From positions 62,001-126,000 of the forward strand of contig OY811990.1 in assembly GCA_963681505.1 (NCBI GenBank): DNA of 64,000 nucleotides, read 5' to 3'. Shown piece after piece: positions 2,961-50,624 of this stretch (positions are counted from its first letter, which is position 1; each line of letters begins with the position of its first letter). The position numbers and the translations under genes are program-made. This DNA is from Eunapius fragilis. Lineage: Eukaryota; Porifera; Demospongiae; Spongillida; Spongillidae. The notes beneath the pieces are model-generated. The model was not told the DNA's origin, did no database searches, and saw only the letters and a program-made list of their open reading frames with translations.

Positions 2961-3316
2961 TATAACAAAAACTTTATAATACTTTTAGATGAATGTAACA
3001 AAATGTTGTATAAGAACACATATGTAGAATAGAACACTAGTTTTGTATGGTTGTATGGTACATGCATGTGATACATATTGTATTTCATGACTTCAGCAAT
3101 TTGTTCATTTGTGCGGGTACAATTTTGCCACCAGTCTACGTATTACAGTAAGCAATTAAACAGTACATTAAATTGCCATTTTGGTACAGATGAATAAACA
3201 CTTTTTAATCTCACTGAGTAATATATCACCTTCCAAACATTTGCTTTTTCATCATACCAAATGATGCATCATCATTGCATTGTGCAAATGGTTCTTTGAA
3301 TTCATAAAATCAATGT

Positions 3317-3628
3317 TTGCGATATAATCTGCTGATACAACGATTAATGCATGAGGTTGGTGAGATTGGAAAGCATGCCAAGAACGATCAGATGTGTGCA
3401 AGATTGGGCTGGTCATGTATTCCATTAGTGGTGGAGGTCTATGGTGGTTGGGGATGTGAAGCCCAAGAATGCTACTCCAGATTGAGTAAGAGGCTAGCCA
3501 TGCAAGTGGGAATATGTGAAACTGAGGCACTGAGCCAAATGTACTGCCTGCTGGGTGTCACACTGATGAGGCAGAATGCAAGAGCCATTCTCCTCAGATG
3601 TGCCCGTGCTCCCCTTCTTGAGTATTAA
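3317..3628 (+). mobile_element. C-terminal fragment of a non-LTR retrotransposon-like ORF
   Basis: The 103-codon frame contains LGWSCIPLVVEVYGGWG, EAQECYSRLSKRLA and VTLMRQNARAILLR. I associate this pattern with the tail that follows reverse transcriptase in non-LTR-type polyproteins of sponges and cnidarians. A second, more decayed copy with the same order (LGWMCIPMAVEMYGNWG...) lies at 9525-9795 on the minus strand, so the segment is dispersed. No reverse transcriptase remains here, which indicates 5' truncation. The assignment is from memory of the motif, not a search. Confidence 0.55.
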
Positions 3629-3860
3629 ACTTAATTGTGTTACGTTGACTAATTTTATTATTAATGCATTAGTCAAAAATCTTCCAAATAATGATTTATC
3701 AGTCATTGGATTTCCAAATGACTTAGTCTTATAAATAGTTCTTGTGACCCTGATTTAGACAAAGGATATAGGTTATTCAACATAAATCACAAGTACAACA
3801 AATGTGTGTAATGTACAACTTCCATTCAGCCATTATTAGTAAACATTTATAGTATTATTT

Positions 3861-6800: not shown

Positions 6801-8197
6801 AAAGAATTCATCTCCTCCAGTGTGAATGATCAGTTTGGGCATTACAAGTCGATCAACATAAGCTGAGTACAGGTATGCATAAGTACACATACATACATGT
6901 ATGCCAACACACTAAGCATTGGGCCTCACATAGGGGATCAATGATGGCAGCCATTGCTTTCATGTTGGGGTCGTCCAGGCGTGCAGTAATGTTCATTTCA
7001 TAGTAGTCATTGAAGGCAAATGACCAACCACCGTATGCTCGGAAGTGATGATGTAAATTCTAGATGCATGTGTTATTGTAGTATGAGTAAATCAATTTAG
7101 TGATGTGCATGCAGTTTTGTGAAATTCTGTTTTCTTACCGCTTGCATATTTAGTTCATCCATAACAATTGGCACGATGCCAATCACTCGAGGGTCAACAG
7201 CTCCAGTGGTCCAGGTGGTCCATCCCCTCTGTACAATTATATGGGCTTTCTACAGACCAGGGTATACCTTGAGGGACATACCTTGGATGCACCTGCAACT
7301 ACAAATTTAGTGAGGTTAAAAGCTGGATTCTTGCTTGCTGCAAAGGATGCCATGGTGTCCAATGCACGGACTGAGGCCTGCGTAAAAATAGTTCATTCAA
7401 AGCAGGTAATATTTATTTTACAGTGCCTTGGTCATTGGAAGACGCAAAAGGTATTCCGGGTCATCAGGGTTGTTAAGGAAGTGATACCAGGTGAAGGCAA
7501 TTATGGAATCTTCAGAGCGACTCTTATGTGTAGGATCATCCTGCAGAAAGAAATCATTTTTAGATATACTAACAAAGAGTAATGGCTGCACTCACTGTAA
7601 ACACAATTGGTGCATTTGGAATTTGGAACAACGTTGCTGCAACCCTTCAAAATCAAAAATAAAGATTCATTTTATACGGGGCTGCCTCCTTAATTAAAGT
7701 ATGACGCATGCTAAAACCTACGTTCCAGTGCTGTATGAAACAATAGGTGAAAATATACCATCTCCAGTAGCGATATCTGGAGGACTGCGGTGAAAATATT
7801 AAACCCGCCGCTATGGACTGTAATAAAACCCACCCGGAATCATCATTGCTGCCTCCAGTGATATACAGAAACCCTGTATCGGTGTGCTGCACGTTGTCTG
7901 GAATAGTGTCACCAAGTAGTGCCACCATACGGATCGTGTGACCTCAGAGGCTGCGATAAAATAATGCAAATGATCAAAAGTTATAAAGCACGGGTTCGTA
8001 TAAGCTGCAGATGGCTTACAAGAAAGCCAAGTTTGTGACGTCATGTTGATGTAGTAGCTTGTAAAACCGTCTCCTTTGACGGTGATGCCCGTGTCCTCAT
8101 AGCGATACGTCGGGTCGTACTTGTTCACATAGTCGTCCAATGGTGTTGCATAGGCAACTCCGAAGACGAAAGAAGCAAGCACAAAAAGACTTCGCAT
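3861..8197 (-). CDS. AprA/PqaA-family secreted alpha/beta-hydrolase, 15 exons, one frame break
   Basis: Member of the PhoPQ-activated/PqaA family, which includes Dictyostelium AprA (secreted proliferation repressor). The ATG at 8195-8197 opens a signal peptide (MRSLFVLASFVFGVAYA) followed by TPLDDYV. Exons, minus strand: 8197-8020, 7950-7834, 7784-7759, 7636-7596, 7540-7427, 7377-7282, 7228-7139, 7059-6930, 6862-6745, 4822-4735, 4680-4642, 4592-4504, 4452-4362, 4099-4034, 3980-3861 (stop). Landmarks in order: INMTSQTWLS, VWWHYLV, LYITGGSNDD, ATLFQIPN, RLPMTK, GASK|RGWTTW (probable nucleophile Ser), NLHHHFRAYGGW, TGGDEFF (Asp), LPNAEHS (His), RRDFRLFCG. The fold and triad are family knowledge. 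Junction phases agree throughout, giving about 467 residues, except that exon 2 has one base too few near 7906-7910. Exon 5 needs a GC donor. The true activity in animals is unknown. Confidence 0.88.
4823..6744 (-). other. Long intron 9 of the AprA-like gene
   Basis: About 1.9 kb between the GDEFF exon and the PNAEHS exon, whereas other introns of the gene are mostly 45-270 bases. It is AT-rich and holds no convincing gene. Motifs at 5180-5420 (GTGCCAATGGTATAGGC; ATGGCAGTTTTGAACTCCATGGGGTATC) partly recur near 8890-9080 and 56795-56830, which suggests repeat insertions enlarged this intron. Confidence 0.6.
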
Positions 8198-8754
8198 TGC
8201 TACAACAGCGTGCCACCCCCTTATGAATATCCTTATGCACGCTGCTGACAAGGCTGCATGGTTCGATGGTACATTACGTAATTAATTCCCCTTCTAATTA
8301 TTAATATCTCTTACTTGCATTTATATAACACGCGCAGATCCACGCATGCACTCTATGCGTTTGCCTCAGCACTTCTTGCATAATTGCGCTGGAAGAACAA
8401 GCCTATTTGAAGACACAAGTAAGTACATTGTATTCGAGAGAGGTCCTAACCATAGATAATCTATGCCCTAACGAATCGGGATGATTGACTATAAATACAA
8501 CAATAGTAGCAAAGGGGAAGTCAAACCTAAGTGGTTGGTTGTATATGTGTAATGGCTAGCTTTAATTTATATAGTAACCCGCTAAATTGAAGTCATAGAC
8601 TCAGTATTACCCCAACCAGCCCGTTAAGGCATGCATGCATGATTTTTATCCTTCTGGCTTGGGGGTACATAGGTAGCCAATCTGAACCTCCTGGCAGGGA
8701 AACATTCTTACGAGTGGCACATATAATTATGCACAATTATGTGGCAAGACAAAA

Positions 8755-9130
8755 TTTCGTGACCCTAATGAAAATCTTTAGCGTTTGATTTGTTATAACG
8801 GTAAACGCTATAACTTCCTATTTTTACTACAACATTGCTCTTATGGTATAATACATTCTTGCACTACCACCGTGCCAGTCAGTATTGCAACCTTCGATAC
8901 TCCACAGGGTTTGAAACCGACATAACTTAATTACGGCAGGAGTAATAAATCGCCGGCTTCATATTACGTGTATCTATATTTGTTCTGTTCGTTAATTTTT
9001 AGTTCATCCGTTACAGATATCAGTATATAGCTGTACAAAGTGCGTGCGCGGTTCCCTCTCGATTCGCGCCAATGATTTAGGCAATTCACTGTATGGGAGG
9101 TGGTTGCCCATAGCTCAATGGAATTTCTTG
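8755..9130. repeat. Dispersed repeat, copy 1 (GGTAAACGCTAT family)
   Basis: The stretch with GGTAAACGCTATAACTTCC, TGGTATAATACATTCTTGCA and GTGCCAGT recurs in the same orientation at 50625-50840. No coding potential is seen. Confidence 0.6.
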
Positions 9131-9524
9131 AAAACCAATTTCTGGGACGGACGCCACAGGGGAAAAAAACTGAAAAGTCCAATGAATTTTTGATTGCAGG
9201 TGATTGAGGCACACCTGCGGAAGAACTGTAATCAATCATGCATGTGGTGATTTTATATGTATGTGATTCAAAATCATTTATATGAAATCAAAGGATTGAT
9301 TCGCAGTCATTTTTTTCCTGTGTCAGTGTGTACTTTAGTGATGAACAGTTTGTATAGCCGTAACGATAAAGTGTTCAGTTTCTGGTTGAATGACTTCTTC
9401 GAAAGGGATGCGGGCAGGTTATTTATTTATTTTTTGTTTCTATTACAATTGAATGCATGGATACATGAACATGAATACATGATCGCGTAGATTGTTATTC
9501 ATAAATAGTTATAACCTAACTATA

Positions 9525-9795
9525 ATGAATACACATGAAAACACTATGGTTATATACAATGCGCTAGAGCTAAGGCCTCTTCCCTGGATGGCTCTTGCCT
9601 CAGCTCTCACCAAACAGATGTTTAGGCGGCCATATATGTCAGGCAGACTGGACTTGGAGCAGATAAGGTGGATAGCTAAATAGGTAGCCAGTCGTGAGAA
9701 CATGTGTTGGGCCTCCTTCCCCCAGTTACCATACATTTCCACTGCCATTGGTATACACATCCATCCCAGTTCTCGAGTTGAGATCGTTGCAGCGA
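9525..9795 (-). mobile_element. Second decayed non-LTR retrotransposon tail fragment
   Basis: The minus strand reads LGWMCIPMAVEMYGNWG, EAQHMFSRLATYLA and YGRLNICLVRAEARAI, parallel to the fragment at 3317-3628 but in opposite orientation. Only this C-terminal segment survives. Confidence 0.55.
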
Positions 9796-9799
9796 AATA

Positions 9800-12060
9800 G
9801 TTTTATTTTTATTTTTAATTTTGATATTTATGTTCTCTACGACTTCTTTCTTACGCACTGGAAATTGATCTATCTATCGCATCATGGAGTTATAGTCAGT
9901 GGCCAGAAAATTATGCGTACATCTTTAATTGCACGCGTCAACTTTGTTCATGGGGAAATTTTGTAATATCGCGTTAGGTCCCTTTTCGCTGCAACGATGC
10001 ATATACGTATGTACAAAAGGCACTTCAATCAATTGATATTTATAGAATATGCAGCTATGCATATATACAATAATAAACAGCTGACCATTTTATTGCGATT
10101 GAGTTCTGAATGGCGATGGCAAACTAGGTACAATTTTCTTCCAAATAACACACCGTACGTACGTCGTATCAAGGTTTTCAACATTTACCTACCACCTGAA
10201 CAGTCCCTTCTGTTCAGTCTCTAAAATAACGCGGGGGAAACCTGGGCGCGTTGGCATACTTGTCAGTATTTTATCCCTGATGATTATGTACATAAGCGTA
10301 GAGAAATAATGGTTTGTCACACCGCATTGAATTTGATACCAACTCGCACCTTCAAAGCTATACCAGAGATAATTATATATAATCTCTGGCTATACACGCG
10401 CGCTCCAACGTATGCACATACGTAATGAAATTACTAATGAAATTAAAATAATAATAATATTTAATTTACTTCCGAAAATCCATGCGGGCAGTAAACCAGA
10501 AACTAAACATTTTATCTAACATGCAAGCGGTAATGAATTAATGGTGTAAATTGCCACTGATGGCAATGTTCTGTACCATTAAAGCGCGAAGGATTTAAGC
10601 ACTTTGGCTGGGGCGGGGCATATAGAGCAGAGCAGTGTAATGGACATATGCATCCATATTTGTCTCTAGACAAAAATCGCTTCAGAATTTTTAGATAGTT
10701 AGAACTGACTCAGGTATAAAAGCTGGTATGAGTCTTTGTTGGATTCAAACTATCGTAATAAGTGATAATGCTTGCAAACAACTGAGTCATCAATAAGTAA
10801 ATCCTGACCCAGTTTGCACCAAACAAGGTTTGGCTTGGAAAGATAAAGGGCGCATATTTTCTAAATCCTGAAATGGTTTTAACAACCCACATTGAAAAGG
10901 ATGGCGAACTATAAAGGTTGCTGTTTTAATCATATTTCCTTTGATGGATAGAATAGCTTTTGAACACAAAACACATTACATACCTAAAATAAGCAATGGA
11001 AACTGGCGCTCCACTTTGACTAAGTCCCTTTGTTGACAACTACATCCATAACAAAATGAAATATGGGCACTCATCAGGTAGAGTGTGAAGTATTTGTTAA
11101 GTGGAGGAGTTTGGGTACCACTACATGTATGCTGAGGGGAGACCAACACCAGATTGTATAAATTGCATCATCACCACTCAACTAGCTTCTATTTTTTGTC
11201 ACCAAACTGACTATGTTGAGCTTGGACCTTTGCACCACTAGTCTTCTCATCAGACAGGTTTACTAGCATTCGGCTTATCTGTTTCAGTTATGAGATACCC
11301 TAAATTATTAAAGCTGATTCATGACATTCCTAGTAATCATGTTGCAAGAGACAACAAGGTCCCCTTGTCCTTCCCTTTCAATACGAAAGTATATCCACTT
11401 CACCTCCAAATGAATCCACTTAGATGTATATAGACAGCTCCTCTTACCGATAAGTTATACATATACCTCTTTCTATATATGTGCAATGTCTCCATCATCA
11501 CTGATGAGTCGTGCTTACCAATTACAACCTTTAGGAATTTAAAAATATCATTTTGGCTACATTATGATGAACATCCTTTACAATTGCAATTTTAATTACC
11601 TCCTGGGTGATATATATGCATTCAAGATAAATATCCTTGTCAATGATGTGTGTGCATTTGTGTATTCGATAGTACTGTATGTTTAGGCAACATTCAATAA
11701 CAAAAAAATTTCATGAACTATTTGCTATTGGTACTAATAAAAACTATGATCTTGTTTACCTCTTTTGATGAATACAATTTGGTAAATACACCTACAATAA
11801 GACCACAATTAACTAGTAGAAACACAATTAACAAAGGTTAATACTTCCTTAAAGATTATAATCCATTTAAAGGGATGAATTTGTGATAATAATGCAATCA
11901 TCTGGAATATGCATAAAGAAAACTTCCCATCACACTCTACATCTCCATTTTAATTAGTTTTTAATCTGTACCCATACAACCATTAATATGTTGCAGCATC
12001 AATTATATCAATTAGCATCATATTGTCATTTAGGTAGTAGAATTTCGTGTTACTTTGTAG
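9800..12060. other. Intergenic, no gene recognised
   Basis: AT-rich sequence with only short frames. The one structure noted is a small hairpin at 10363-10389 (CCAGAGAT, 11-base AT loop, ATCTCTGG). Confidence 0.5.
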
Positions 12061-12111
12061 GTATTATGCGTGATTTCATCTTCCTCATAAGGCTCTATAT
12101 AAGAGGCAGCA

Positions 12112-13044
12112 ATGAAGTCAGTCAATGGAACAAACACAACTGCAGATTTGGCAACTGCACTAATTGGCCTTGGAATAGCTCATCTGCTATGTGTTTGTGT
12201 ACTCTCCCTAGTTGTGGGGACATTTGTTACCATTCTCATCGGCAAGCTATTGAAAACAGCAAGGGACAAAACGCCTGCTATACATAACTTGTTACTTATC
12301 TTGTATCTCATTGTGATTAGTACCTGCATGCTTGGTCCGGTTAGCTATGGAATACTATGGGACATCAGTCTCATTACTGGCATCCCTGTAATGGGAAATT
12401 GTGCATCATACCCTTCAAACATAATGGGGATACTTGCATTCTGTGTTTTCCAGATGCTTTTATCATATTTGATTGGCCTGATTGCACTTATTCAACTCAT
12501 TACTGTGAAGTATGACAAAAAATTGACAGCAAAGTCATCCATTGCAGTAGTGTTTGTTATTGTATTCATGAGCACAGTCCTTTCATCTGCCGTTGTGTTC
12601 AATGAAAGGGATACAGCAGAAATAAGGGGATCACTTTGTGTGACAGATGAAAAAGCAGTACAACGAGACACAGCAATATTGCTGGCTCTTGGTTACATTC
12701 CATCATTTGCAATAACTATTGTGGCTACTGTGCTAACATATATCAAGATCAAAGATCATGTAATTGATCCGAAAACAGGAATTATTAAATCTGTGCTTGC
12801 AATCAACATTTTTAATATTGTGCAGTACAACATTTTTAGAGCTACGGCATTCCTGGTATTTTATACCGCAGTCTCAGCTGCACCCAGTGATGATGGAACA
12901 ATATTTAAAATTTGTACCGTTCTTGGAAGATACATTGCAGACCTCAGCTACCCTGTTACAATATTTGCAATACTATTTCTTCACAAAAGTATTCGTTCAC
13001 AATTATCCAGATATGTCTTTGGTACCATAATACAGAAAAAATAA
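12112..13044 (+). CDS. Seven-transmembrane receptor-like protein, paralogue 1
   Basis: A 310-residue coding exon. The N-terminus carries two sequons (NGT, NTT) and is followed by seven hydrophobic spans at about 17-44, 57-80, 102-131, 143-163, 187-211, 225-253 and 265-291. Cys97 before span 3 and Cys176 in the second outer loop sit where rhodopsin-class receptors form their disulfide. DRY and NPxxY are absent: span 3 ends TVKYDKKL and span 7 carries GRYIADLSYPVT. A paralogue at 49532-50518 shares LIGLGIAHL, DISLI, FNE, EIRG, LGYIPS and the two Cys at identical 79-residue spacing. The paired N-termini support the start at 12112. A pyrimidine-rich AG about 30 bases upstream suggests a 5' UTR intron. 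Lineage-specific GPCR-like protein; ligand unknown. Confidence 0.85.
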   Translation: MKSVNGTNTTADLATALIGLGIAHLLCVCVLSLVVGTFVTILIGKLLKTARDKTPAIHNLLLILYLIVISTCMLGPVSYGILWDISLITGIPVMGNCASYPSNIMGILAFCVFQMLLSYLIGLIALIQLITVKYDKKLTAKSSIAVVFVIVFMSTVLSSAVVFNERDTAEIRGSLCVTDEKAVQRDTAILLALGYIPSFAITIVATVLTYIKIKDHVIDPKTGIIKSVLAINIFNIVQYNIFRATAFLVFYTAVSAAPSDDGTIFKICTVLGRYIADLSYPVTIFAILFLHKSIRSQLSRYVFGTIIQKK

Positions 13045-23173: not shown

Positions 23174-23373
23174 NNNNNNNNNNNNNNNNNNNNNNNNNNN
23201 NNNNNNNNNNNNNNNNNNNNNNNNNNNNNNNNNNNNNNNNNNNNNNNNNNNNNNNNNNNNNNNNNNNNNNNNNNNNNNNNNNNNNNNNNNNNNNNNNNNN
23301 NNNNNNNNNNNNNNNNNNNNNNNNNNNNNNNNNNNNNNNNNNNNNNNNNNNNNNNNNNNNNNNNNNNNNNNNN
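23174..23373. other. Assembly gap (200 N)
   Basis: Exactly 200 undetermined bases, bordered on the right by a GC-rich 18-base tandem repeat that probably runs into the gap. Confidence 0.99.
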
Positions 23374-23445
23374 CGCCGTCTCCCCCTGCATCGCCGTCTC
23401 CCCTTGCACCGCCGTCTCCCCTTGCACCGCCGTCTTCTCCTGCAT
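23374..23445. repeat. 18-base tandem repeat truncated by the gap
   Basis: Four copies of CGCCGTCTCCCCTTGCAC with small changes. Because 18 is divisible by three, the minus strand reads as a Gly/Asp/Ala-rich hexapeptide repeat. The frame continues on the minus strand from an ATG-proximal stretch near 23520 (VMDLSEHDLRQMEVDQD), so a coding origin is possible but unproven. Confidence 0.8.
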
Positions 23446-23569
23446 CACTATCTTGATCTACCTCCATCTGTCTCAAATCATGTTCTGATAAATCCATTAC
23501 ATGTACTTTGCAAAGTGATGTGAGCATAGTTTTAGAAATGCTTTTATAGGCCTCACGAAGTTGGTGAAG

Positions 23570-23790
23570 AGGCTGGACTTGATGCCTTTGAAGTGAATAA
23601 ATTGCTTGTGTCGAAAATCTTGTTCGCTAGGAAGGCTGGACTTAACCTTCTTTGAAGTGTATGAATTGCTTGTGTCGAATAATCTAGTTCGCTAGGAAGG
23701 CTGGACTTAACCTTCTTTGAAGTGTATTAATTGCTTGTGTCGAATAATCTAGTTCGCTAGGAAGGCTGGACCTAACCTTCTTTGAAGTGG
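23570..23790. repeat. 65-base tandem repeat, about 3.4 copies
   Basis: The unit contains AAGGCTGGACTTAACCTTC, TTTGAAGTGTAT, AATTGCTTGTGTCGAATAA and TCTAGTTCGCTAG. The first copy is diverged, and the next ones differ by one or two bases, which indicates recent amplification. Confidence 0.9.
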
Positions 23791-24221
23791 AAAATGGGTG
23801 CTATAATGTTCATAGACGATGCTGTTGTCATCCCAGGAAGGTTCGCAGTTTCGGTGACATGCTTTTGATGTTTACGTACTATTATTGCGTCATTATGGAT
23901 GAATAATTACAACGTTACTGCCACACCCAATGACAAATCATTGAAAGCAGTGTCATATGATGCACACCATGACTAAAACACAACACAGCAACAGTTATTT
24001 ACACAAGTGCAGCAGTCTGTTCTGAGTCTCAAATCACCATTTTTGAGTCACCAGCAGTCATGTCAGAACTCCAATCGACACTGCAGGTAAATGCAAGCAC
24101 TCCAACACCACCCATGGCACTGAATCACCATGTAATTACAAGACTCTGGCAGAAGCTTTGATTGAATAACCTCCACATCTGACAGATATCACTCACTCAT
24201 CACCAATCCGATCTCTGACAA

Positions 24222-25985
24222 GTGCAGTACACAATCACTACAATAACTCCACACCTAAATTGTACACAACCATCACCAAGTCCGGTCCCATACACTGATG
24301 TGCGATGCACCATCACTGAAAGACTCCACACACCTAAATTGTCACCAAGTCTGGTCCCTGCACGATGCACCATCACTAACTCCACACACCTAAATTGTAC
24401 ACAACCATCACCAAGTCTGGCCCCTGACACCATCACTGACTCCACACACCTAAATTGTACACAATGGTCACCAAGTCTGGTCCCTGACACTGAAGTACGA
24501 TGCACCATCACTAACTCCAAACACCTAAATTGTACACAACCATCACCAGTCTGGTCCCATACACTGATGTGCGTTGCACCATCACTGACAGACTCCACAC
24601 ACCTAAATTGTCACCAAGTCTGGTCCCTGACACTGAAGTACGATGCACCATCACTAACTCCACACACCTAAATTGTACACAACCATCACCAGTCTGGTCC
24701 CATACACTGATGTGCGTTGCACCATCACTGACAGACTCCACACACCTAAATTGTCACCAAGTCTGGTCCCTGACACTGAAGTACGATGCACCATCACTAA
24801 CTCCACACACCTAAATTGTACACAACCATCACCAAGTCTGGCCCCTGACACCATCACTGACTCCACACACCTAAATTGTCACCAAGTCTGGTCCCTGACA
24901 CTGAAGTACGATGCACCATCACTGACTCCACACACCTAAATTGTACACAACCATCACCAAGTCTGGCCCCTGACACCATCACTGACTCCACATACCTAAA
25001 TTGTACACAACCATCACCAAGTCTGGCCCCTGACGCCATCACTGACTCCACACACCTAAATCGTACACAATGGTCACCAAGTCTGGTCCCTGACACTGAA
25101 GTACGATGCACCATCACCAAGTCTGGCCCCTGACACCATCACTGACTCCACATACCTAAATTGTACACAATGGTCACCAAGTCTGGTCCCTGACACTGAA
25201 GTACGATGCACCATCACTAACTCCACACACCTAAATTGTTACACAACCATCACCAAGTCTGGTCCCTGACACTGAAGTACGATGCACCATCACTAACTCC
25301 ACACACCTAAATTGTACACAACCATCACCAGTCTGGTCCCATACACTGATGTGCGTTGCACCATCACTGACAGACTCCACACACCTAAATTGTCACCAAG
25401 TCTGGTCCCTGCACGATGCACCATCACTAACTCCACACACCTAAATTATTACACAACCATCACCAAGTCTGGCCCCTGATACCATCACTGACTCCACATA
25501 CCTAAATTGTACACAATGGTCACCAAGTCTGGTCCCTGACACTGAAGTACGGTGCACCATCACTAACTCCACACACCTAAATTTTTACACAACCATCACC
25601 AAGTCTGGCCCCTGACACCATCACTGACTCCACACACCTAAATTGTACACAATGGTCACCAAGTCTGGTCCCTGACACTGAAGTACGATGCACCATCACT
25701 AATTCCACACACCTAAATTGTACACAAACATCACCAAGTCTGGCCCCTGACACTGAAGTACGATGCACCATCACTAACTCCACACACCTAAATTGTACAC
25801 AACCATCACCAAGTCTGGTCCCTGACACTGAAGTACGATGCACCATCACTAACTCCACACACCTAAATTGTACACAAACATCACCAAGTCTGGCCCCTGA
25901 CACCGAAGTGTGATGCACCATCACTGACTAATTCCACACACATAAATTGTACACAACCATCGCCAAGTCTGGTCCCTGATAAGTG
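24222..25985. repeat. 1.76 kb complex minisatellite
   Basis: Composite units combine three blocks: CACACACCTAAATTGTACAC, AACCATCACCAAGTCTGGYC and CCTGACACTGAAGTACGATGC/CACCATCACTRACTCC. They recur more than 20 times in variable order (long, short and AATGGTCACC variants). Long frames on both strands exist only because the unit lacks stops. No splice or start context supports a gene. Confidence 0.95.
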
Positions 25986-25989
25986 TGAT

Positions 25990-26480
25990 GCACCATTACC
26001 ATCTCTGGACACGTACTCCACCCACTGAACAATCACCGCAGCACGTGCCATCATTACATGGCAATGCCAACCTAAACCTCTTCAAATTTTCAGGACTAGC
26101 ATCATTCACTTTTGTAGCCAACACTACTCTCATCCTCCTATATGTAGAGTACACCAGTCAAATAGTAAATCATCTCATATTTATATCATACCTCTTTATA
26201 TATACTATGTGAAGTTAGAGCTGTCACCTGCACACAGCATGTATTAGAATGACGTGTTGATGGACTACAGGGACACTGTAAAGTTACACGCATATGAGCA
26301 AATAAATGCACACTTGCATTTGACAATACATGTATGCAATGGCCATTCAGGTAAACAGAAGCCATATCAACACCAGCAAATCTAGATATGGTCATCAGTT
26401 TAGATGTTCAAAGAAGCAATGAATATTGATTGATAATACATGCTACACACCCATATACAGGCATTTTCTTCCCACCTGTT
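25990..26480. other. No gene recognised
   Basis: Unique-looking AT-rich sequence between the minisatellite and the repeated exon cluster. Confidence 0.5.
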
Positions 26481-26489
26481 AATTAACAC

Positions 26490-27215
26490 TTACATAATGT
26501 TCCATAAAGTTGTTTTGCAAAAGAAGAACTCTGTAACCTGGAGTTGGTAGAGGCTCAGAAAATGTCACTTGTACACCACCATTACCTTTTTTACAGTGAT
26601 TACTCATTTGCAGTGAGACAGACTGCCAGCTGTACGACCAGCTGCTATATCTTCCTGATGTTCCACATAGCTGCTTTTCAAATGAAGAACTCTGTAACCT
26701 GGTGTTGTTAGAGACACAGACACAAATGCACCATTTTCAAAAATGGCAACAGACACCTGTACACAGTACATTTAAAAAATTTACCTTGCATCCAACGTGT
26801 TTACACTTAATGTGCAAGACATAGAAGCTATATCAACAACCAGTAGACCACAATAGTGGGAAGGGCCTAGCACAGAACTTCAAAAGAATCATGAATTCTG
26901 GCATGCTACAGCATGGCATGACCCTTACCTCCTTGATCCTCCTAAATTGACCTACACCTTGCTGTACCACCTATATGCCACAACATATCAAATCTCATTA
27001 GAACAGACATAGAAACCAGACAGACAGAATGTGCAAGATGGATGAATAAGGCTGCCCTGACTCACTGACTCTCCCATGGGAGCTGATTGCTGAGAAGGAT
27101 GGCAGCTGTATGACCCATTGCTGTACCATAAAGCTGCTTTGTACTCTGTAACCTGGTGTTAGTAAAGGCTCAGAACAAATGTTAAAATGTATAGTACCAC
27201 CATTACCTTTTTTAC
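26490..27215 (-). pseudogene. Three diverged copies of a TPGYRV-type exon
   Basis: Minus-strand segments at about 27215-27110, 26765-26650 and 26600-26493 share a pattern: GNGG or ENGA, a beta-like stretch (VQVTFSEPL; FVSVSLTT; CSEPLL), the invariant TPGYRV, then a polar segment ending in a phenylalanine- or tyrosine-bearing motif (NNFMEHY; SSYVEHQ; SSFMVQQ). Two are bounded by candidate splice signals (AG before GTAATGGTGG or GTGTCTG; GTAAGT-like after EHY). They look like duplicated exons of a repeat-domain protein or a repeat derived from one. The domain is not recognised. Confidence 0.45.
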
Positions 27216-27480
27216 AGCTTGATTATGTACCATATTAATTGACAAATGAGCCATTCCAATGACTGGTGTATACACTCAGCAAACAGAATAGGGCATTTGA
27301 TTAGCTGACCACATGTGTGCTGGACATGTTAGTACATTGGTCACCTGAAATTCTATGTGGTATTGCATTTTGTGTATACCCACCACACCCGCCCACACCA
27401 GTCATAGTATTCTGAGTAGACATGAGTCTTGTGTTTAAAACATAGAACACAGTGCCTTCAAGTACATCACCAGTGGTACA

Positions 27481-27850
27481 GGGTCATTGATTAGCTGCAT
27501 GTTGAATAACAGCCTTTGCCAGCACACAGCCAGCTATTTGCCCTGTCTTATGACCACAGAATATGTGATCCATGCAGGGTCATTGATTAGCTGCATGTTG
27601 AATAACAGCCTTTGCCAGCACACAGCCAGCTATTTGCCCTGTCTTATGACCACAGAATATGTGATCCATGCAGGGTCATTGATTAGCTGCATGTTGAATA
27701 ACAGCCTTTGCCAGCATATAGCCAGCTATTTGCCCTGTCTTATGACCACAGAATATGTGATCCATGCAGGGTCATTGATTAGCTGCATGTTGAATAACAG
27801 CCTTTGCCAGCACACAGCCAGCTATTTGCCCTGTTTTATGACCACATAGT
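27481..27850. repeat. 96-base tandem repeat, four copies, beside the Helitron
   Basis: Copies start at 27481, 27577, 27673 and 27769. They are almost identical (one CACACA to CATATA change in copy 3, one C to T in copy 4). A stop-free frame results because 96 is a multiple of three and should not be taken for a gene. It lies about 150 bases beyond the Helitron stop codon and could be part of the element's 3' region. Confidence 0.95.
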
Positions 27851-27852
27851 TT

Positions 27853-27995
27853 GATCACAAGAAGTACTGGCCCATGTTGTGGACAAAGACATCATGATGG
27901 CACACATCAATGTGTTGTGATCATTTGACCAAACCAGCCTATGATTGGGTATCTAGCTAACCCATCATACCTGTGGCACTCCAAATCCAGTGAAA
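27853..27995 (-). other. Probable 3' flank of the Helitron; terminus unresolved
   Basis: Between the stop and the 96-base array lies an imperfect dyad (GATCACAA at 27855, TTGTGATC at 27914). One CTAG occurs at 27951-27954. I could not pair a hairpin with a CTRR end, so the element boundary remains open. Confidence 0.35.
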
Positions 27996-30900
27996 CTAAT
28001 CATCACTGCATTGAGATGTAATTACATCAAAATGGTCATTATTAGTCCATACGATATACAATGACTTTTGTTGCACATCATCAATTAAAGCACTGTCAAG
28101 AACTATTGGGAAAATTGTCATCCAATGCATAGAAGTAGGGTTATAGGAATAAATGTTGCATTTCATCAAGTGAGCAAATGCATACATTTCTGTTTCAGTA
28201 CCCCAACCAACTGTATCCATGTCTGAGGCAATAATGTAGTGTTGTACATTACCATCTACATTAACATTGTGACATGATTCTAGTAAAGGTGCTATGTTTA
28301 GCATGTGTGCAACAATTGCCATTCGTACCGCAAAATGTTGGTCTTGTGAGCCAGTTAGGATGTATGAAAAACATCTGAAGAGGCAGTTCCCATCACCTAT
28401 TGCCTTCACCAAGGTTCTGAGGTTAGGACGTTTCAAGACAACATTTGGACCACCAGGCTCAACAAACTGACATGCACGGGTATATACAAGGTTAAGTTCT
28501 CTGCATTTTTCCCGTTGCCACTGTTCATCAGTCTGATAATACCTGTAACTTGGCCTGGCACTCTGAGGTTCAGCATGTGGAACTGTTACATCACCTTCAG
28601 TAATTTCTATAACATCAGGATTAGATATTGAATGGGCTTTGGATGACCCCAAGCCGAGAGTCTTTTGTTTTTTTCTACCTTTGCTATGTGGAACAGAGGA
28701 TGGCCTCTTGAGATGAGGTGTTACAGACCCACTTTCACCCTCCAATGGAAAAGCACTCAACTTGTGTTTGGTGGGTTTGGACTCGTCATTGGAGAGTGTG
28801 ATCGGAGGAAGGTCAGGTTTGAACTGATGCCTAAGCCTGTTTACTTCTAGAACACATTCAGTACTGACCTTGATAGATCTAGGATCAAATGCTAGCAAGT
28901 GTAATCCAGCCAGTGTTCTAACCCTAGAGATGGCTACATATGCCATTCCTGTTGCAAACACACTGCTGGAAAGGTCGACTATAGCACAATCTAACGACAA
29001 CCCTTGACACTTGTGTATTGTTACAGCAAATGCCAGTATCAAGGGAAATTGTTTTCTTTGCACATAGAACCGACGCAGAATTTGGAATTTGCTACGAATG
29101 CGTTCAATCTTAAACTGCAAATTAGGAGTGTGATCAAATGTGACCTGAATGTACTCCTTGGTGATTGCAGCTACAGTACCAAGTGCACCATTCACTAACC
29201 CCTGAGCAGTGTCTAGATTGCGTCTTAGCATGACCCTAGCCCCTACAGCTAGTTTTAATTCTGCCTCCAAACCAGCAGTTGTGTTACAATCTTTATTTAG
29301 CTTTTCTAGTTCAGATGCTGCCCTCTTGGTCCACTTTACTGTCCCTGCTGTCTCATCAAATTCATCTATACAGGGTATCTTTACATCCTCTGAACTCACT
29401 TTAGAGAGCATGTCTATGTTAAATTGGTCACATGACTTTCTTGTAGCAAATAGGCACACCGGAGACATACCCTGACCTAAAAGTTCTTGGAACTTTTCAA
29501 CAGCTGTGCATGTAATAACAGCTTTGCGCAACTGAGCAAATGTTTTATCTGAAATACAATTAACCCTGACCTCATTTAACAAGTGACCAAATTCAGGGTC
29601 CCGTTTTTGTCGCTCATTAATGGTCAGTTCATCATATACTACAGTTTCTCTCCAGATGTTCACTGATGTCATGCAGCCTAGCCTTGCGGCAATTACTTTG
29701 TTGCAAATATTCTGGAACACCATTGAGCCATTCACTGGAGGGAGCTGTAATATGTCCCCAACGAACAGGACATTCATTGCCCCAAACCATTGGTCACTTC
29801 CAAACACTTCTTCAAGTCTGAGGTGTACATAAGCTAAGCAGAGACTGCTAAGCATGCTGACCTCATCAATAATGATTAGCTTAAGATGTCTGAAAGCATT
29901 TCTCATCACTTTCAAAGTTTCTTTTGGAAGTGGCCAATAGCTTGATGTTTTAGAATCATGTTCTATTGGCAATTGGAATAGCCTGTGAACGGTGACACCA
30001 TCTATATTAAATGCTGCCAGCCCAGTTGGTGCCGCTAGTGCACACCGTACAGAGTCTTTGTTATCCTTCCACAATTCATTTACCATAGCCCTGATGGTAT
30101 GAATTAGGAAAGATTTACCTGTTCCACCAACCCCGCTTATGAACATGCACAGGGGGCTATTTTTAGTACAAGAACATTCACCACTTTCATGACGCTTTTG
30201 GTGAGAAAGATGGTCACTGACACTGTTGAAGACTCGTAGCTGATCTGCATTGAGCTTTGCAACACGTTCTTCAACTGTCTCTGTCCCTGATTTACACTCG
30301 TTGAGATGGAACAAATCTTCCATTGCTGACTTTGCCTCGCCATGGAAGAAGGCATCTTCCTCGGCAGGAGGTGCTGGTGCATCTTGCTCTTGCCTTGCCT
30401 CATTTATCTTTTTTACAGCTGTCTGTGCTTTAAGTATTGCCTGTAATTTATCATGGTGCTCTGAGAGATCAGCATTATCACCAATGAGGCGATTAAAAGC
30501 TACCTCAGCTGTTTCACCATCTGCTATTAGACTACTCTCGTCTCGAAACGGGATGAATAGCAGCATGAGAGAGTAGTAATAGTCCTCCCTTTGATTTTCA
30601 GTTGAGGGGTCAAACAGTTTGTGGTTTGGCAGGACAGGTTTCTGTAATTTCTGGTATACTCTGGAACCATTTTCATTAGTCCCACGGTATGCATACCACT
30701 TTATGAAGTCATACAGGCACACATCTTCCAGCTCTACAGGCCTAGTAGGGTAAAATATGTCCACCACATTACCCTCTAAGATATCAGTGGAACCTGGATT
30801 GTTCTTTTCTATTTGAACAAGCTGGGCATGACTCTTAAGCCTTCGCTTACGCTTATGTGGCATTGCCACATCAACCCATTTGACAGTCACAGATTTTTCA

Positions 30901-33900
30901 GTGAGATGGTCACCAAGCAGTAGGTCACTGGCCTCATAGAGGCCGCACTCTCTGGAACGCAAGGACCTTACCCCAAACGACCACAGCTTGCTATAAATGC
31001 TACTGTTAGCATTAACCTCCTGCCACACATCCTGCATGCCACTTTTCTCAGCCTTGGTTACATAACCTGTGACATAGTGAGCTAGAGTCAATGAAGATTC
31101 AGCTGTGAACTGGATATCCATGTTGGCCCTCCACAAAAGAAGCAACAGTGGATTATAGTCATTGACTCGACACTCATCTGCTGAACGTGGAAGATTGTAT
31201 ATCTTTTTCCTCGACTTAAGGCATTCCTCTACAGAGTTTAGCACTGCACTCTCGGTACAGTCACGAGGAAAGCCAAATCTGCATGTGGTAATAAAAGCAC
31301 TTTTAAGCTTTCTCCTGCGTTTGCAATAGTCTGTACACTTATGCATTTGGTACTTCGTGACTAATGCATGGAGTTCAGGATTCAGAATTGCATCAGGGAT
31401 TTTGCAGGTGATGCGTTCTTGGATCCATGCAAGAACCTCTGTTGGGTCACTCTTTCCAATCACGGGTGCACCTTGAATCCACAATAATACATGATAATGT
31501 GGGGCTCCCCGCATCTGATATTCCTTCTTGAAATAGAAGTGTTCAACTATTCCAAGCACAGACCCTTTCAATATAACAGTATTAAAAAGATCGTGAAAAT
31601 TTTGTGAAAATTTTCTGGAGACAGAAACTGCATCTTCGGTGCAAAGCTTAGATATGGGACAGCTAGCAGGTTGGTCATTGACCTTCCTGAGGTACCTAGC
31701 AATGTGCTCTGAGTCGTACTCTGCACAGCTGAAAGTAAGGAACACTGAAGGTGACCCATATTCTCTAAGCATGCATTTCAGCTCACTACTTTTATGAAAC
31801 CAGTACTGTTTAGTACCACGAACGGACTGAAATATTGTGGAAAGATTTGCCTCAACATTTTCATCAGATTTCGACACTCTAGCAAGGAATTCATGCACAG
31901 GCATTTTGCCTTTACTTGTACTCTTCAGAACATTGTAAATGCCTGCAGAAATTTGCCTCATTTCCTGCTGCCACAATAAGAAGAAAACATATTGTGGATC
32001 TTTTCGAAACCTGGAATCTTTGTTCAGTAGCCTAGACTTGGCATACTCTGATGCTGACACAGGCTTATCTCGAGGGTGAAATTCACCAAACTGTCCTGTG
32101 GGGAAAAGTGTTGGAAAACACATCACATCGAGATGTTTCTGTCTGCTTTGGATTGGATCATCTTTGACATTCAGCATCTTGTACTGTTCAACGTCCATCA
32201 ATGCTGACCCTTGTTGATCCAGTGATCGAATCGTATATGACTGTAATGCAGCTATGTCATCAACAGAGGCCTTTTCTAACATTCTGCTAGAGGCCTTGTC
32301 AACCACCTCTACCACCTTCTTTGCTGCATCATCTAAAGCTTGATCATCCAGATTTTTATACAGCCAGTTTATTTCCTTTAGTTTATGTATGGCTAACTTT
32401 AAGGCATTTACATCTACTAATGTCTGCCAGACAACCTTATTTTTAGTTGGAACACCATTCAAAATTATGAACAGCTCTGGGTCAGGCAAAGTCACTATGT
32501 CAGTTTCACTGACATGGACCTCCGATAGGGTCTCCCATGTTTTGTTTAGTGGTAAGGGCAGAAAGAACATAGTACCTTTACAGGCTTGGAGGGCATTATA
32601 GGCTGGCACTTTACCAGAATATGTACCCAATCTCACTATTGTCTGAAAAGCTTTTGCTCTCTGAATTAACTGCTTACTGAGAGCATCAAGTGACTTTAGC
32701 TCATCGGGAACAGGTTCAGTGACAAGCCCATTAAGAACACATCGTGCAGGCATAGTGTTCTTATTAAGATACGGCAGGCAATACTTACAAATGTAAAGTT
32801 TTTGGGTACCACTATTTTGCAGGATGTGAGCTTTCAATGTCAACCATGCAGCTGTTTGGTATTTGCTGAGGTTACTGAAGTCAACACAAGACACAGCTGT
32901 ACGTCGACATAAACGCTCACAGCAACAACAGGGAAACTCTGCATCATCATTGAATTTGGACTGCAGTTCAGCGATGAGTTCAGCATGTGTAACAAGCAGG
33001 TGTCTTTCAATGCAACCAAGACCAGGCAATGAATGGTCTTCACTGACTATGGGATGCTCTGCACCTTCCTCACTGAACAACTCGGTTAAGTTATCCTTCA
33101 AGCCCAGGTACTCTATTAGTTCATCAACACTCCCACTAGAAAGCATTGAATCAATAGCTTTAATGGCCATGTGTTTTTTGTTGACAGAATAAAGTTTCCA
33201 AAGGAAGCCCCTTAGCACAGGATAATGAGGTGCAGCTGCCCTTATTACCCTCAGTGGACTGGAGCATGTTGGGAACTCACAGGAAATGGGGTGCCCACGC
33301 CACTCACTAAAGCGCAAGTCTGATTGCACAGTGCTATCATGATGCACATAACCACACCCTGAATCAAGACTGTCAAGGCCAGCTCGAACATCTTCTGTGC
33401 ATTGTTGAAATAGCACCTTTGTCCCCAATACAATGTTTATTTCATGTTTAGTGAGCAGCCGACATTCTTTTGTACATTTCCATTTCAGTGGACGCATACT
33501 GACAAAATGCCTGTCGCCTACCTCCTCTGCCACTACACACCTACCATTCAGGTCTACTGGTATAGCACCAAGCTGCCTTGTGTGGTTGTAAGAGGTGTCA
33601 TAGAAGAAAGGCTCTGAATTAGCAGTATGGTACCTTGCCCCACCTAGAATGTCGCTATCAGCTAATTTTATTGCATTAATAGCCCGAACATCATGTAGAA
33701 ATTCACCTGCTATTTTTCTACGCATGTTCAGTGCTTTGTTAAGCAACGCACCTGTACTAACCTCACTAACAGCTGCATGTGCAGATCTAGTACAAACCTT
33801 TTGTGCTAACCATGGGTGGGTTTTGCAAAAGGCATCATTTAACTCATCTAACAATGTACTATTCCTTAGAATAGCCTTTTCAAGGCCACCTTTATACTCC

Positions 33901-34727
33901 CTTAGTACAGTATGGTTTGGTTCATACAGGGACTGGCTACAGTGGTAAACAAAATAAATAGTAAAATTATCAGCAGTTATACATTACATAATTACAATAG
34001 TTATGTGTTAAAAACACACGCACTAAAGGTACGTACAAATGTAGTAAGAGTAGGTAGCTACTGGTACAAGCACAAGTACGACATACCTTTGAGTGACCTT
34101 AACTCTTTTCGCCAAGCAAGCACGTTCGGTACTCTGCCAATATCGTTGTCTTTTAGCAGCCCTTTCCTTTTCAGGCCCCGCTCGATACCTGGCGCATCGA
34201 GAGGTCCGTTTCTTTTCAGGCTCTGCTCGATACATCTCACGTTCAGAGGCCCGTTTCTTTTCAGGCTCTGCTCGATACTTCTCACGTTCAGAGGCCCGTT
34301 TCTTTTCAGGCTCTGCTCGATACTTCGCACGTTCAGAGGCCCGTTTCTTTTCAGGCTCTGCTCGATACTTCTCACGTTCAGAGGCCCGTTTCTTTTCAGG
34401 CTCTGCTCGATACTTCTCACGTTCAGAGGCCCGTTTCTTTTCAGGCTCTGCTCGATAGTTCACACGTTCAGAGGCCCGTTCCTTTTCAGGCTCTGCTCGA
34501 TACCTTGCGTTTCGAGAGGCTCGTTTCTTTTCAGGCTCTGCTCGATAGTTCTCACGTTGAGAGGCCCGTTCCTTTTCAGGCTCTGCTCGATACCTTGCGT
34601 TTCGAGAGGCCCGTTTCTTTTCAGGCTCTGCTTTGTAGCTCGCTCGGGCAGAATCTAATACGTCATCTCGAGTTTTGAGGTACTTTGCTCGTCGTTTGGC
34701 TTTCTTCTTTTCCTGACGTGAAGGCAT
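27996..34727 (-). CDS. Helitron/Helentron Rep-helicase-OTU protein, two exons, intact
   Basis: Exon 1 is 34727-34087 and exon 2 is 33936-27996, joined by a 150-base phase-2 intron (CAAAG|GTATGT ... CTGTAG|C). The product is about 2193 residues with no stop. Order: about eleven 15-residue repeats YRAEPEKKRASEREK (1-200); Cys clusters CCCCERLC and CKYC (about 550-600); Rep domain with HUH motif PHYHVLLW (His 1027/1029) and two-tyrosine site HYVTGYVTKAEK (Tyr 1168/1172); PIF1-like helicase with GVGGTGKS (about 1482), IIIDEVSM, GDILQLPP, TIHKCQGLS and YVAISRVRT; basic bipartite signal; OTU protease with GDGNC (Cys 2065) and NNDHFD (His 2182). Rep-PIF1 plus OTU is typical of the Helentron branch (family knowledge). 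It nicks and unwinds DNA for rolling-circle transposition. No neighbour gene is cotranscribed. Confidence 0.9.
33937..34086 (-). other. 150-base intron in the Helitron gene
   Basis: Donor GTATGT directly after CAAAG and acceptor TTTGTTTACCACTGTAG with a pyrimidine-rich tract. Removing it converts the split codon to AGC and restores one continuous frame. Without splicing, exon 1 runs into a stop about 20 codons later. Confidence 0.8.
34135..34660 (-). repeat. 45-base coding tandem repeat in Helitron exon 1
   Basis: Eleven to twelve copies of a 45-base unit encode YRAEPEKKRASEREK-like 15-mers. The five middle copies are nearly identical at DNA level and the edge copies are diverged, the usual outcome of unequal exchange. 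The peptide should form a highly charged helix. Confidence 0.93.
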
Positions 34728-35120
34728 TCTGAGAAAAACAACTTCACTAAGTTACAAAGACCGTCAAACCAACAACGATCGAAGCACAAGAATGATTATA
34801 GTACGCACGTGCACGTTATTAAAAACATGTAGTGCAAGACCGGATACATGCCACAGTTAATTACCACTATGTGTAGTGCCCAGACCGTACACATTCGATT
34901 ACATCTGATGTATACTACTAGTACTTCGTATAAAGAGCGAAGTATGACCTATCCGAGTCGTGTCAGTGCAGTAAGCTTAACTATACGTGATTTGCTAACA
35001 CAACCACCGATATATGTCATGTAGCCTCGAGACGTTTTGACCACAGAAGCGAAAATGCCAACGAATTCTGAAGCCATTGGTGTGATTTTCATTTCTTAAA
35101 AGTGTTCCTATCCCGAGTTA

Positions 35121-35291
35121 TGCGTGGTCAAGAACAAGAACAAGAAGAAGAAGAAGAAGAACGAGAAATACGTGGGACTGGGTACGAGTTTCAAAAATTG
35201 TTTTGTTCTCTACAACCCCGCGGTTTTGTGACATCAAACAAACACGAAACTGCTTGTTGTTGCCTTCTTGTACGACGACGACAACAAGGTA
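35121..35291 (+). CDS. Hypothetical first exon, Glu/Gln-rich start
   Basis: ATG at 35121 opens MRGQEQEQEEEEEEREIRG and continues to RRRQQ, followed by AAG|GTAAGC, a good donor. It lies head-to-head with the Helitron start about 390 bases away. No downstream exon was found and the plus strand soon enters the antisense gypsy fragment. It may be Helitron 5' sequence rather than a gene. Confidence 0.25.
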
Positions 35292-35338
35292 AGCCATCCG
35301 CTCGTCGGGAGTCTTGTTAGAAGCGGGTCGCGTTTTTT

Positions 35339-35945
35339 TAATGACATTCATAATCGGGGTCAAATCCTATATGAGAGTTACTAACGTAACTCTCGACTAG
35401 TACTGTTGGCAATATCAGTTCCTTTTTTACATCACCAAAGGCTTTTTCTTGATCTGGGCCCCAAACCCATTCTTGTTTTTTGCTTAGCAGAGCACGTATT
35501 GGTTGAGACATTTCAGCTAGGCAGCTGGAAAACTTCCCCAATTGGTTAATCATACCCATCAGACGTCTGAGTTCTGTGATTTTAACTGGATTTTGGAGAT
35601 TCAGAATAGCAGAAACCTTTTCCGGATCAGGATGGATACTCTTTTGATCAATTAGATGTCCCAGGAATTTTATTTGACTTTTCCCAAACTCACACTTTTC
35701 CAAGTTAAGTGTTGCTCCTGCTACTTGGATGCGTGTTAGAGCAGCCTCTAGCCGTATGTCATGTTCGGCTTGGTCTTTAGCGAAGATCAGAACGTCATCC
35801 ATCAAACACAGAACCCCACTAAGCCCTGCCAAGATATGATTCATGATTCATTCTTTTCTGAAAGTGTTCTGGAGCACTTGATATTCCAAATGGCATTTTA
35901 TTAAAACAGTAACGACCATAAGGGGTTATAAATGTTGTTAATGGT
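35339..35945 (-). pseudogene. Ty3/gypsy reverse transcriptase-RNase H fragment
   Basis: Minus strand: a block reading LTTFITPYGRYCFNKMPFG, then FQKRMN, then LMDDVLIFAKD (the catalytic DD pair), KCEFGKSQIKFLGHLI, ITELRRLMGMINQL and the RNase H entry WGPDQEKAF. The first block is out of frame with the rest because of a 7-base direct duplication (TGAATCA twice) near 35845-35858. Everything upstream of the palm core and downstream of the RNase H entry is missing. No long terminal repeat was found at its ends. Confidence 0.88.
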
Positions 35946-49531: not shown

Positions 49532-50518
49532 TCAGTCTTTCATGACTTGCTGATCAATCATTGAAACAACTGTTGACTTTGAGAGTTCCAAATGCAATTT
49601 TTGTGGTGTGTCGATGCAAAATACTGTTTTTAGGCATGACAATAACATTGAACGGAGACTCTTATGCATCATTATGATAGAACATGTCGTTACAGGATAG
49701 CTCAAATCTGCAATGTATCGACCAACCACTACAAGTAGTTTGAAAATTGTTAAATCATCTTCAGGTGCCACAGATATGCCAACGTAAAATAAAATTACTG
49801 AAGCAGCCCTGAATAAATTGAATTGTACTATATTGAATAAGTTGATGGCTAGTACAGATCGTACTATTGCAGACTTTTTCTGGTCAAAAATACTCTTCTT
49901 CAACTTATAATGAGTGATAAGGGTAGCAGCTATAGTGATTACAAGAGAGGGAATGTACCCAAAGAGAAGTAGAATGGCTAGGTGGAGTTGAGTTGTATCA
50001 GGATCTGATGTGCATTGAATGCCACGTATTTCTAGGTAATAATATTCATTGAAAATAACAGCACAAGGGATAGTCACACTTATGGTGGCAACTAATATGA
50101 GTGCAATAATTGTTGCTTTGAGAGTAATTCGCTTTCCATATTTTAGTATCATGAATTGAAGAACTGATGCAAGTCCAATTACATTAGATAGAAGCGTATG
50201 AAATATTTTAAATGAAAGGTTACCAGCCAAGCCTGATGGATAGTACTTGCAGATCTGTGGGGCACCAATTATCAGGCTAATATCAGAAAATAGACCATAT
50301 GTGAAAGGCCCAGAAATACTGAGAACAATCATTACGGAGTACAACAATATTGTCGAATTGATCATAAATATCTGTTTCATTTTTATGAGCTGACAAATGA
50401 AAATAAGAGCAGCTGTTCCAAGTATCACAGATGGTATGCAGACTATCACAAGGTGTGCAATACCGAGACCAACCAGAGTTGTGTCCAGGGAACTTGAATT
50501 TGTTTCATTATATTCCAT
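49532..50518 (-). CDS. Seven-transmembrane receptor-like protein, paralogue 2
   Basis: A 328-residue coding exon. The N-terminus carries two sequons (NET, NSS), and seven spans lie at about 15-43, 55-77, 97-126, 134-155, 179-204, 218-246 and 258-285, with a 40-residue cytoplasmic tail ending MIDQQVMKD. Shared with the protein at 12112-13044: VGLGIAHL, SISGPFTYGLFSDISLI, FNE, EIRG, SVLAINLFNIVQFN, GRYIADLSYPVT and HKSLRS. Cys90 and Cys169 occupy the disulfide positions at the same 79-residue spacing. DRY and NPxxY are missing; LKYGKR and YPVT stand in their places. TTATTTTTTCAG eight bases before the ATG suggests a 5' UTR intron. A member of a lineage-specific receptor family. Ligand and coupling are unknown. 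Confidence 0.86.
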   Translation of the reverse strand: MEYNETNSSSLDTTLVGLGIAHLVIVCIPSVILGTAALIFICQLIKMKQIFMINSTILLYSVMIVLSISGPFTYGLFSDISLIIGAPQICKYYPSGLAGNLSFKIFHTLLSNVIGLASVLQFMILKYGKRITLKATIIALILVATISVTIPCAVIFNEYYYLEIRGIQCTSDPDTTQLHLAILLLFGYIPSLVITIAATLITHYKLKKSIFDQKKSAIVRSVLAINLFNIVQFNLFRAASVILFYVGISVAPEDDLTIFKLLVVVGRYIADLSYPVTTCSIIMMHKSLRSMLLSCLKTVFCIDTPQKLHLELSKSTVVSMIDQQVMKD

Positions 50519-50624
50519 AGGTATCCTGAAAAAATAATAACATTATTTGTTGTAATTAGTTTGGCAGCAACAAGCTAAGTGATAAATTTGCCACCATGAA
50601 TTGATCGTAAATTAGTTGGGACAG

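Follow-up and report, generated by a model that had tools for sequence, protein, structure and literature searches.

The window analysed here, a stretch of 64,000 nucleotides (nt) from Eunapius fragilis (contig OY811990.1, positions 62,001 to 126,000), carries on its reverse strand a transposon of the Helitron superfamily. It is likely that this element is an autonomous, 13.25-kb Helitron that was recently mobile, and that its 3' end acts as a hairpin terminator, the two arms of which are kept alike through the transposition cycle. The ends of the element, its target site, dispersed near-identical copies, a 5' hairpin that covaries among lineages, a 3' palindrome with matched arms, and both orientations of the palindrome loop were all observed.

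Relatives of the element were sought in the same assembly (219 Mb in 24 contigs). There were 441 candidate places, of which 39 were scored and 30 studied (L001-L030); the counts are therefore lower bounds. Among at least 39 places, 18 were full-length over the query at 99-100% identity, the window copy (L002) included, one was a partial copy at 100%, and 20 were 76-78% identical. The near-identical copies formed groups A (L001-L005), B (L006-L010) and C (L011-L018), and related lineages were D (L020-L025 and L027, with L029 at 96.5%) and E (L026, L028 and L030). Full copies elsewhere in the genome were 13,253 bp long. Four group A copies (L001, L003, L004 and L005) showed no difference over 11,426 of 13,254 positions and had different flanks on both sides; the window copy did not differ from them over 10,195 compared positions. 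The main frame was open in 26 of 30 copies to the end of the piece compared, which stopped before the OTU protease domain (L007 and L019 begin behind gaps); it was broken in L027 and L029, and an insertion breaks it in L013 and L014. The OTU end was intact in all copies checked (four from A, one from B and one from C). L013 and L014 contained the same nested insertion in the helicase part, opening with the same 5' terminus, and were identical over 6,804 nt with different 5' flanks, which is most simply read as movement of a broken copy in trans. A preliminary description of the window had suggested that the element was young and might be active. The undiverged copies at different sites, and the empty sites described below, agree with this, and the element was probably recently active.

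Of the 18 near-identical copies, 16 began with TCGAGAGTTACGTTAGTAACTCTC; the sequence of L006 begins just inside this point, and the start of L007 lies behind a gap. The preceding base was A in 15 copies and G in the window copy. Across the genome the 24-nt 5' end had 299 exact copies (control 0), of which 291 were preceded by A and eight, including the window copy, were not. The 3' end, as seen downstream of L001, L003, L004 and L005, read ...CTACTTG|T at element position 13,253. Both flanks were known for 12 of 18 copies (four from A, two from B and six from C), and when joined these read A|T in every case. The joined site of L014 was present without interruption, and identical at 195 of 195 nt, at C4:2077185-2077379, the remaining 39 listed matches being 95-97% identical over part of the query; for L001, the junction was spanned at 88-94% by 40 listed repeat copies, some of them only to nt 176. 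Finally, a short non-autonomous element was present in L020 and absent from L021, the rest being identical over 6,572 nt; the empty site read ...CAATA|TAAAATA in L021 and the filled site ...CAATA|TC...CTTG|TAAAATA in L020. The joined junctions and the comparisons of empty and filled sites show that insertion occurred at A^T without target duplication. Copies and empty sites together located both termini, that is, a TC start and a CTTG end around an A^T site. Insertion at a fixed dinucleotide without duplication is the Helitron pattern, and the 5' TC with an A^T target is that of Helitron1.

Two insertion sites were themselves of interest. The 5' flank of L018 (group C) indicated insertion at the AT of ATATAGG, inside an apparent palindrome arm of another family member. 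In the window, the Helitron 5' end interrupted a reverse transcriptase fragment (35338-35847, reverse strand; RVT_1, 6e-10), the frame of which covers profile positions 134-203 of 205 only.

In the lineages compared, the 5' end consisted of TC, a 9-bp stem with a 4-nt loop, and then ATATAGGA. Nineteen distinct 5' strings were assembled, 18 from approximately the first 100 listed of 3,687 matches (control 39) and one in addition, with strings from palindrome arms excluded. The stem was perfect in 11 strings, had one mismatch in six, two in one and seven in one, and the six main stem classes differed mutually at 1-6 of 9 positions. Among the 11 perfect stems, the loop was GNNA in eight, the others being CTTA, TATA and GCGG. 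Folding of five stems as DNA gave a hairpin each time, and none of 200 shuffles was as stable. By comparison of these strings, the 5' hairpin was shown to covary among lineages. A terminal hairpin 0-2 nt from the 5' end is the Helitron2 arrangement; the Helitron1 arrangement, a single short 3' hairpin ~11 nt from the end without a 5' hairpin, was not what was found here. The motif ATATAGGATTTGA (A) or ATATAGGAATC (D) was common to both ends in inverted orientation, adjoining the 5' hairpin rather than forming it, and it recurred inside the 3' arms in the same lineage-specific form. Compensatory changes in the 5' hairpin have been described before in one Helitron2 pair (PMC3627910; this and the other articles cited are represented by excerpts), and so the covariation extends a known feature, while the 3' palindrome is the new part. 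Further stem classes (F, G and H) were seen at L109, near 153 (reverse strand), and among the 5'-end matches listed.

The 3' end was a near-perfect palindrome with arms of ~133 bp, common to short non-autonomous relatives. Thirty-nine palindromes were considered, from 15 autonomous-type copies, 23 other places and one copy of lineage D, with a further D copy (L111) inspected by eye. Of these, 36 were extracted automatically and that of D by hand, and L091 and L094 were left out. Over 125 nt per arm, 16 of 36 palindromes had no mismatch or gap, 11 had one mismatch and nine had more mismatches or gaps; the D palindrome had none. Over 108 nt, the differences from the N reference (L080) lay at seven sites in A, B and C and at 19 in D, all of them matched. 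Between A and D, all 17 changes over 108 nt were matched (20 in each arm over 115 nt). Single matched changes were found in L084, L092, L098 and L100, and two in L097. Unmatched changes (inner + outer arm) occurred in L082 (0+1), L087 (5+3), L088 (5+4), L089 (7+6), L090 (0+2), L093 (0+10), L095 (0+1) and L096 (1+1). In these alignments, therefore, the arms change together between recently multiplied lineages, and several diverged single copies, which are undated, no longer match.

Group B had a 28-nt loop that was the reverse complement of the A/C loop, bar one or two letters, and the loop was likewise reversed in L078 and L095 relative to the other 16 of 18 N-type palindromes. In A, B, C, N and D the end of the palindrome was the transposon terminus, and short derivatives without the main gene retained it. 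The inner arm begins with ACAAG, the mirror image of the outer-end CTTG|T, and a weak short stem (TTCTC/GAGAA) lies ~17 nt from the 3' end, inside the long palindrome. A word from the palindrome arm gave 1,984 + 2,036 genomic matches with up to two mismatches (control 0); among the ~100 listed, many were paired ~200 bp apart, as two arms would be. Five non-autonomous copies of ~1.3-1.5 kb were deduced from matching 5' and 3' ends, and the 5' part of three of them was 97-98% identical to window 35396..34851. Among the listed titles and abstracts of open-licence articles, there was no report of a Helitron 3' palindrome of such size, a reversing loop or hairpin replication, which is not proof of absence; one candidate precedent (PMC10797722) was rejected, the palindrome in the excerpt being mitochondrial.

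The window copy and its gene comprise the following features:

23374..35396, reverse strand: window part of the Helitron, element positions 1-12023 of 13,253, running into a 200-N assembly gap
35373..35396, reverse strand: 5' terminus, consisting of TC, a perfect 9-bp stem and a GTTA loop (the end with 299 exact genomic copies, control 0)
35360..35372, reverse strand: subterminal motif ATATAGGATTTGA, which recurs in both 3' palindrome arms of full copies
34087..34727, reverse strand: exon 1 of the RepHel-OTU gene, with ATG at 34727, as read from the sequence
34159-34632, reverse strand: 45-bp repeat array within exon 1, encoding a basic repeat peptide
33937..34086, reverse strand: predicted 150-nt intron, GT...AG, from the sequence and the onset of conservation at the acceptor
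27996..33936, reverse strand: exon 2 of the RepHel-OTU gene, with the stop codon at its end
32340..32762, reverse strand: DUF6570 region (Pfam)
31482..32045, reverse strand: Helitron_like_N domain, with the HUH histidines at its end (Pfam and protein alignment)
29598..30173, reverse strand: Pif1-type helicase domain (Pfam, Pif1 structures and the helicase part of Helraiser, 7lcc)
28128..28397, reverse strand: C-terminal OTU cysteine protease domain (Pfam and OTUD1, 4bop)
27479..27846, reverse strand: 96-bp tandem repeat, 3.8 copies, inside the element and 3' of the gene
24273..25979, reverse strand: tandem repeat arrays within the element
23586..23789, reverse strand: 65-bp tandem repeat, 3.2 copies, upstream of the second open frame
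23374..23497, reverse strand: second open frame, start only (Gly/Asp/Arg-rich repeats)
23174..23373, no strand: 200-N assembly gap, replacing the remainder of the second frame and the 3' palindrome of the window copy

The preliminary description had confined the element to 27996..34727, which is the coding part only; the element itself starts at 35396 and continues past 23374. Neither the second frame nor the 3' palindrome was visible to it, because the assembly gap removes both from the window copy. Its account of the gene fared well. The stop-to-stop frame 27996..33983 (reverse strand) is free of stops over 1,995 amino acids (aa), with 1,979 codons from the predicted acceptor to the stop, as had been claimed for an uninterrupted main exon. 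The 5' exon said to be spliced on in exact phase fits the sequence also, with a GT donor at 34086-34085, an AG acceptor at 33938-33937, phase kept, and exon 2 running from 33936. DNA alignments to relatives ~77% alike, those of the D lineage, begin at window 33941, near the predicted acceptor, and in the protein alignment of A, C, D and E conservation sets in at residue 16, directly after the acceptor; A and C are 99% alike, and so this alignment represents three lineages in effect. Both observations lend indirect support to the proposed 150-nt splice.

A Pfam scan of the 1,995-aa frame identified Helitron_like_N (3.4e-24), DUF6570, PIF1 (2.5e-22), Pif1_2B and OTU (5e-07). The OTU region matched the deubiquitinase OTUD1 (PDB 4bop, 1.5e-08), including the DGNC and final His segments, and the helicase part matched Pif1 structures as well as the corresponding part of Helraiser (PDB 7lcc). 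Residues H829/H831, Y970/Y974, 1284-1291 and D1373-E1374 were invariant in the A/C/D/E alignment; we take these to be the HUH histidines, the two tyrosines, Walker A and Walker B, respectively, all of which had been noted in the preliminary description along with the OTU residues. The predicted protein therefore has the composition of a Helitron replicase-helicase (RepHel), with HUH, two tyrosines and a Pif1 helicase. The ratio of nonsynonymous to synonymous substitution rates (dN/dS) was 0.119 between A and D (1,808 codons, dS = 1.26), 0.229 between A and C, 0.126 between A and E, and 0.150 between D and E. Given the A-D value, the RepHel-OTU frame is not a chance occurrence, and these comparisons show both coding capacity and purifying selection.

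The second open frame is 202 codons long in A. Two C copies have 207 codons, and two B copies have 208 and 196; another B copy, L007, is interrupted by a gap. Fixed ends enclose a middle of Gly/Asp/Arg repeats. The frame had no Pfam match and is a candidate gene at most, since a repeat unit that is a multiple of three would keep it open anyway, and an RGG-like nucleic-acid-binding role would be a guess.

Elsewhere in the window, the earlier statement that all other elements were dead was tested lightly: none of the four stop-free frames of at least 180 aa outside the element had a Pfam match, and the reverse transcriptase frame beside the 5' end is the fragment described above. Stop-free frames at 12103-13041 (forward strand, 313 aa) and 49535-50542 (reverse strand, 336 aa) were 47% identical over 295 aa; both are hydrophobic, perhaps membrane proteins, and lack a Pfam match.

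The proposed mechanism is as follows. Rep would recognise the shape of the 5' hairpin, not its sequence, together with the adjoining ATATAGGA motif, and would nick one strand at A^TC; the helicase would then peel the strand up to the 3' end. There, the ~133-bp arms would form a very long hairpin, with CTTG at its end, that serves as the terminator, and the released strand would be inserted at an A^T site. While the element is single-stranded or cruciform, its arms may pair, so that mismatch repair, or copying of one arm from the other, keeps them alike, and the same paired state could let the loop turn round. Intact copies would mobilise short derivatives and disrupted copies in trans. We infer the nicking, the peeling, the terminator role, the cause of arm matching and the action in trans, and we read the palindrome as a terminal hairpin that undergoes re-copying or repair in the course of transposition. 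Helraiser uses a single donor strand and forms circular double-stranded intermediates, and its 3' hairpin is a terminator, the loss of which raises capture of flanking DNA (PMC4778049, PMC5876387). By analogy, a long palindrome would be a strong terminator.

The palindrome might alternatively be passive, having no role in transposition, with gene conversion or cruciform repair homogenising its arms and intrachromosomal recombination flipping the spacer. Long inverted repeats do recombine and invert, and loop reversal was rare here (two of 18 N-type palindromes plus one autonomous group of three), as that explanation would have it; yet L087, L088, L089 and L093, though undated, bear many unmatched changes and were not homogenised, the palindrome ends at the transposon terminus in all five of A, B, C, N and D, and short derivatives that have lost the main gene keep it. 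We consider a passive palindrome unlikely. A third account, tentative and drawn by analogy, gives the palindrome a part in replication: once the transposon strand is freed, its folded 3' end would prime the second strand, and Rep would nick the CTTG|T mirrored at the inner end of the palindrome to resolve the hairpin. This is conceivable because the inner-arm ACAAG mirrors the outer CTTG|T; each cycle would then rewrite one arm from the other and could turn the loop, as at parvovirus ends, but we hold it to be rather improbable. Several observations weigh against the terminal hairpin as proposed here. Ordinary recombination between inverted repeats could produce both arm matching and loop reversal. 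The palindromes had been selected on similarity or on the presence of both arm words, so that decayed ones are under-represented, and the diverged palindromes are undated. In B and in C, one arm change near the loop, outside the 108 nt compared, is unmatched, and L090 has its two. Of 200 shuffles, three folded as well as the short 3' stem. The 3' terminus is CTTG in A, B, C, N and D, and CTTA in L082, rather than the CTRR of Helitron1, and when the Rep part was searched by sequence against solved structures, only chance-level matches emerged. The comparison between copies covered the element on either side of positions 9169-10996, and the case for activity is sequence-based, coming from copies and empty sites.

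Two further explanations were rejected. The copies could belong to a non-mobile family, made identical by segmental duplication or assembly error; several of them adjoin 200-N gaps (the window copy, L007 and L019), and L016 and L017 have a common 97-nt 5' flank and may be a duplication. Nevertheless, four A copies are identical with different flanks on both sides, 12 of 12 junctions read A|T, and an uninterrupted site was matched at 195 of 195 nt, which makes this explanation extremely improbable. The preliminary description had named the element a Helitron/Helentron, and of this the Helitron superfamily and the RepHel-OTU protein stood. A Helentron would be a RepHel with OTU that integrates via an endonuclease, and OTU domains have indeed been reported for that group (PMC4067079, PMC5148889); but Pfam found no endonuclease domain in the 1,995-aa frame or in five other element frames, and the target was A^T at 12 of 12 joined junctions, not TT, so that we regard a Helentron as very unlikely.

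As to the assembly, L016 and L017 (group C) are 13.4 kb apart in the same orientation, have all 97 nt of the compared 5' flank in common and are identical throughout the compared pieces, and represent either a tandem duplication or an assembly duplicate. Gaps of 200 N fall inside family copies in the window (23174-23373), L007 (1268-1467), L019 (before position 1501) and L027, and so near-identical copies or palindromes may break the assembly.

To our knowledge, how the Helitron strand is ended and how the second strand is synthesised are not settled. The experiments cited here rest on one reconstructed bat element (PMC4778049, PMC5876387). The present family is a natural one, with intact genes, near-zero divergence between copies, defined ends, empty sites and ~4,000 arm-word matches in one genome. 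Its terminal palindrome would carry a record of strand copying, and so a clue to how Helitrons are copied. The family also permits a direct test of whether Rep reads the structure or the sequence of the ends, and of whether the hairpin primes replication; were hairpin priming true, some Helitrons would be rolling-hairpin rather than purely rolling-circle elements.

Among known systems, parvovirus ends combine an HUH nuclease at a terminal palindrome with matched arms and a middle part in two orientations. The likeness is a mechanistic analogy only, since here the palindrome lies at one end of a chromosomal transposon. Helentrons and HINE-DINE elements resemble the element in the OTU protease of the group and the central tandem repeats of relatives, and differ in that no endonuclease domain was found here and insertion is not at TT (PMC4067079). 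FoHeli1/2 of Fusarium have a 5' TC followed by a short hairpin, hairpins at both ends and signs of recent activity; their 5' loop is GAA, where most here are GNNA, their 3' end is ATTTT, they insert between TNAT and T, and the excerpt describes no OTU or long palindrome (PMC5148889). Helitron2 (Bao and Jurka 2013, PMC3627910) has a 5'-most hairpin with compensatory changes, a 3' hairpin, and a short motif inverted at both ends, as here. Helitron2, however, inserts after TTTT rather than at A^T, its shared motif lies inside and not beside the 5' hairpin, and no giant 3' palindrome is described in the excerpt. With Helitron1 (Helraiser/Helibat) the element has in common the RepHel, 5' TC, A^T insertion without duplication, a 3' structure and non-autonomous relatives; it departs from it in the 3' CTTG instead of CTRR, the 5' terminal hairpin, the OTU domain, the second open frame, and arms of ~133 bp where Helitron1 has a 16-20-nt palindrome ~11 nt from the end (PMC4778049, PMC4067079). 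Judged by its termini, therefore, the element mixes end features of Helitron1 (TC and A^T) with a feature of Helitron2 (the 5' hairpin).

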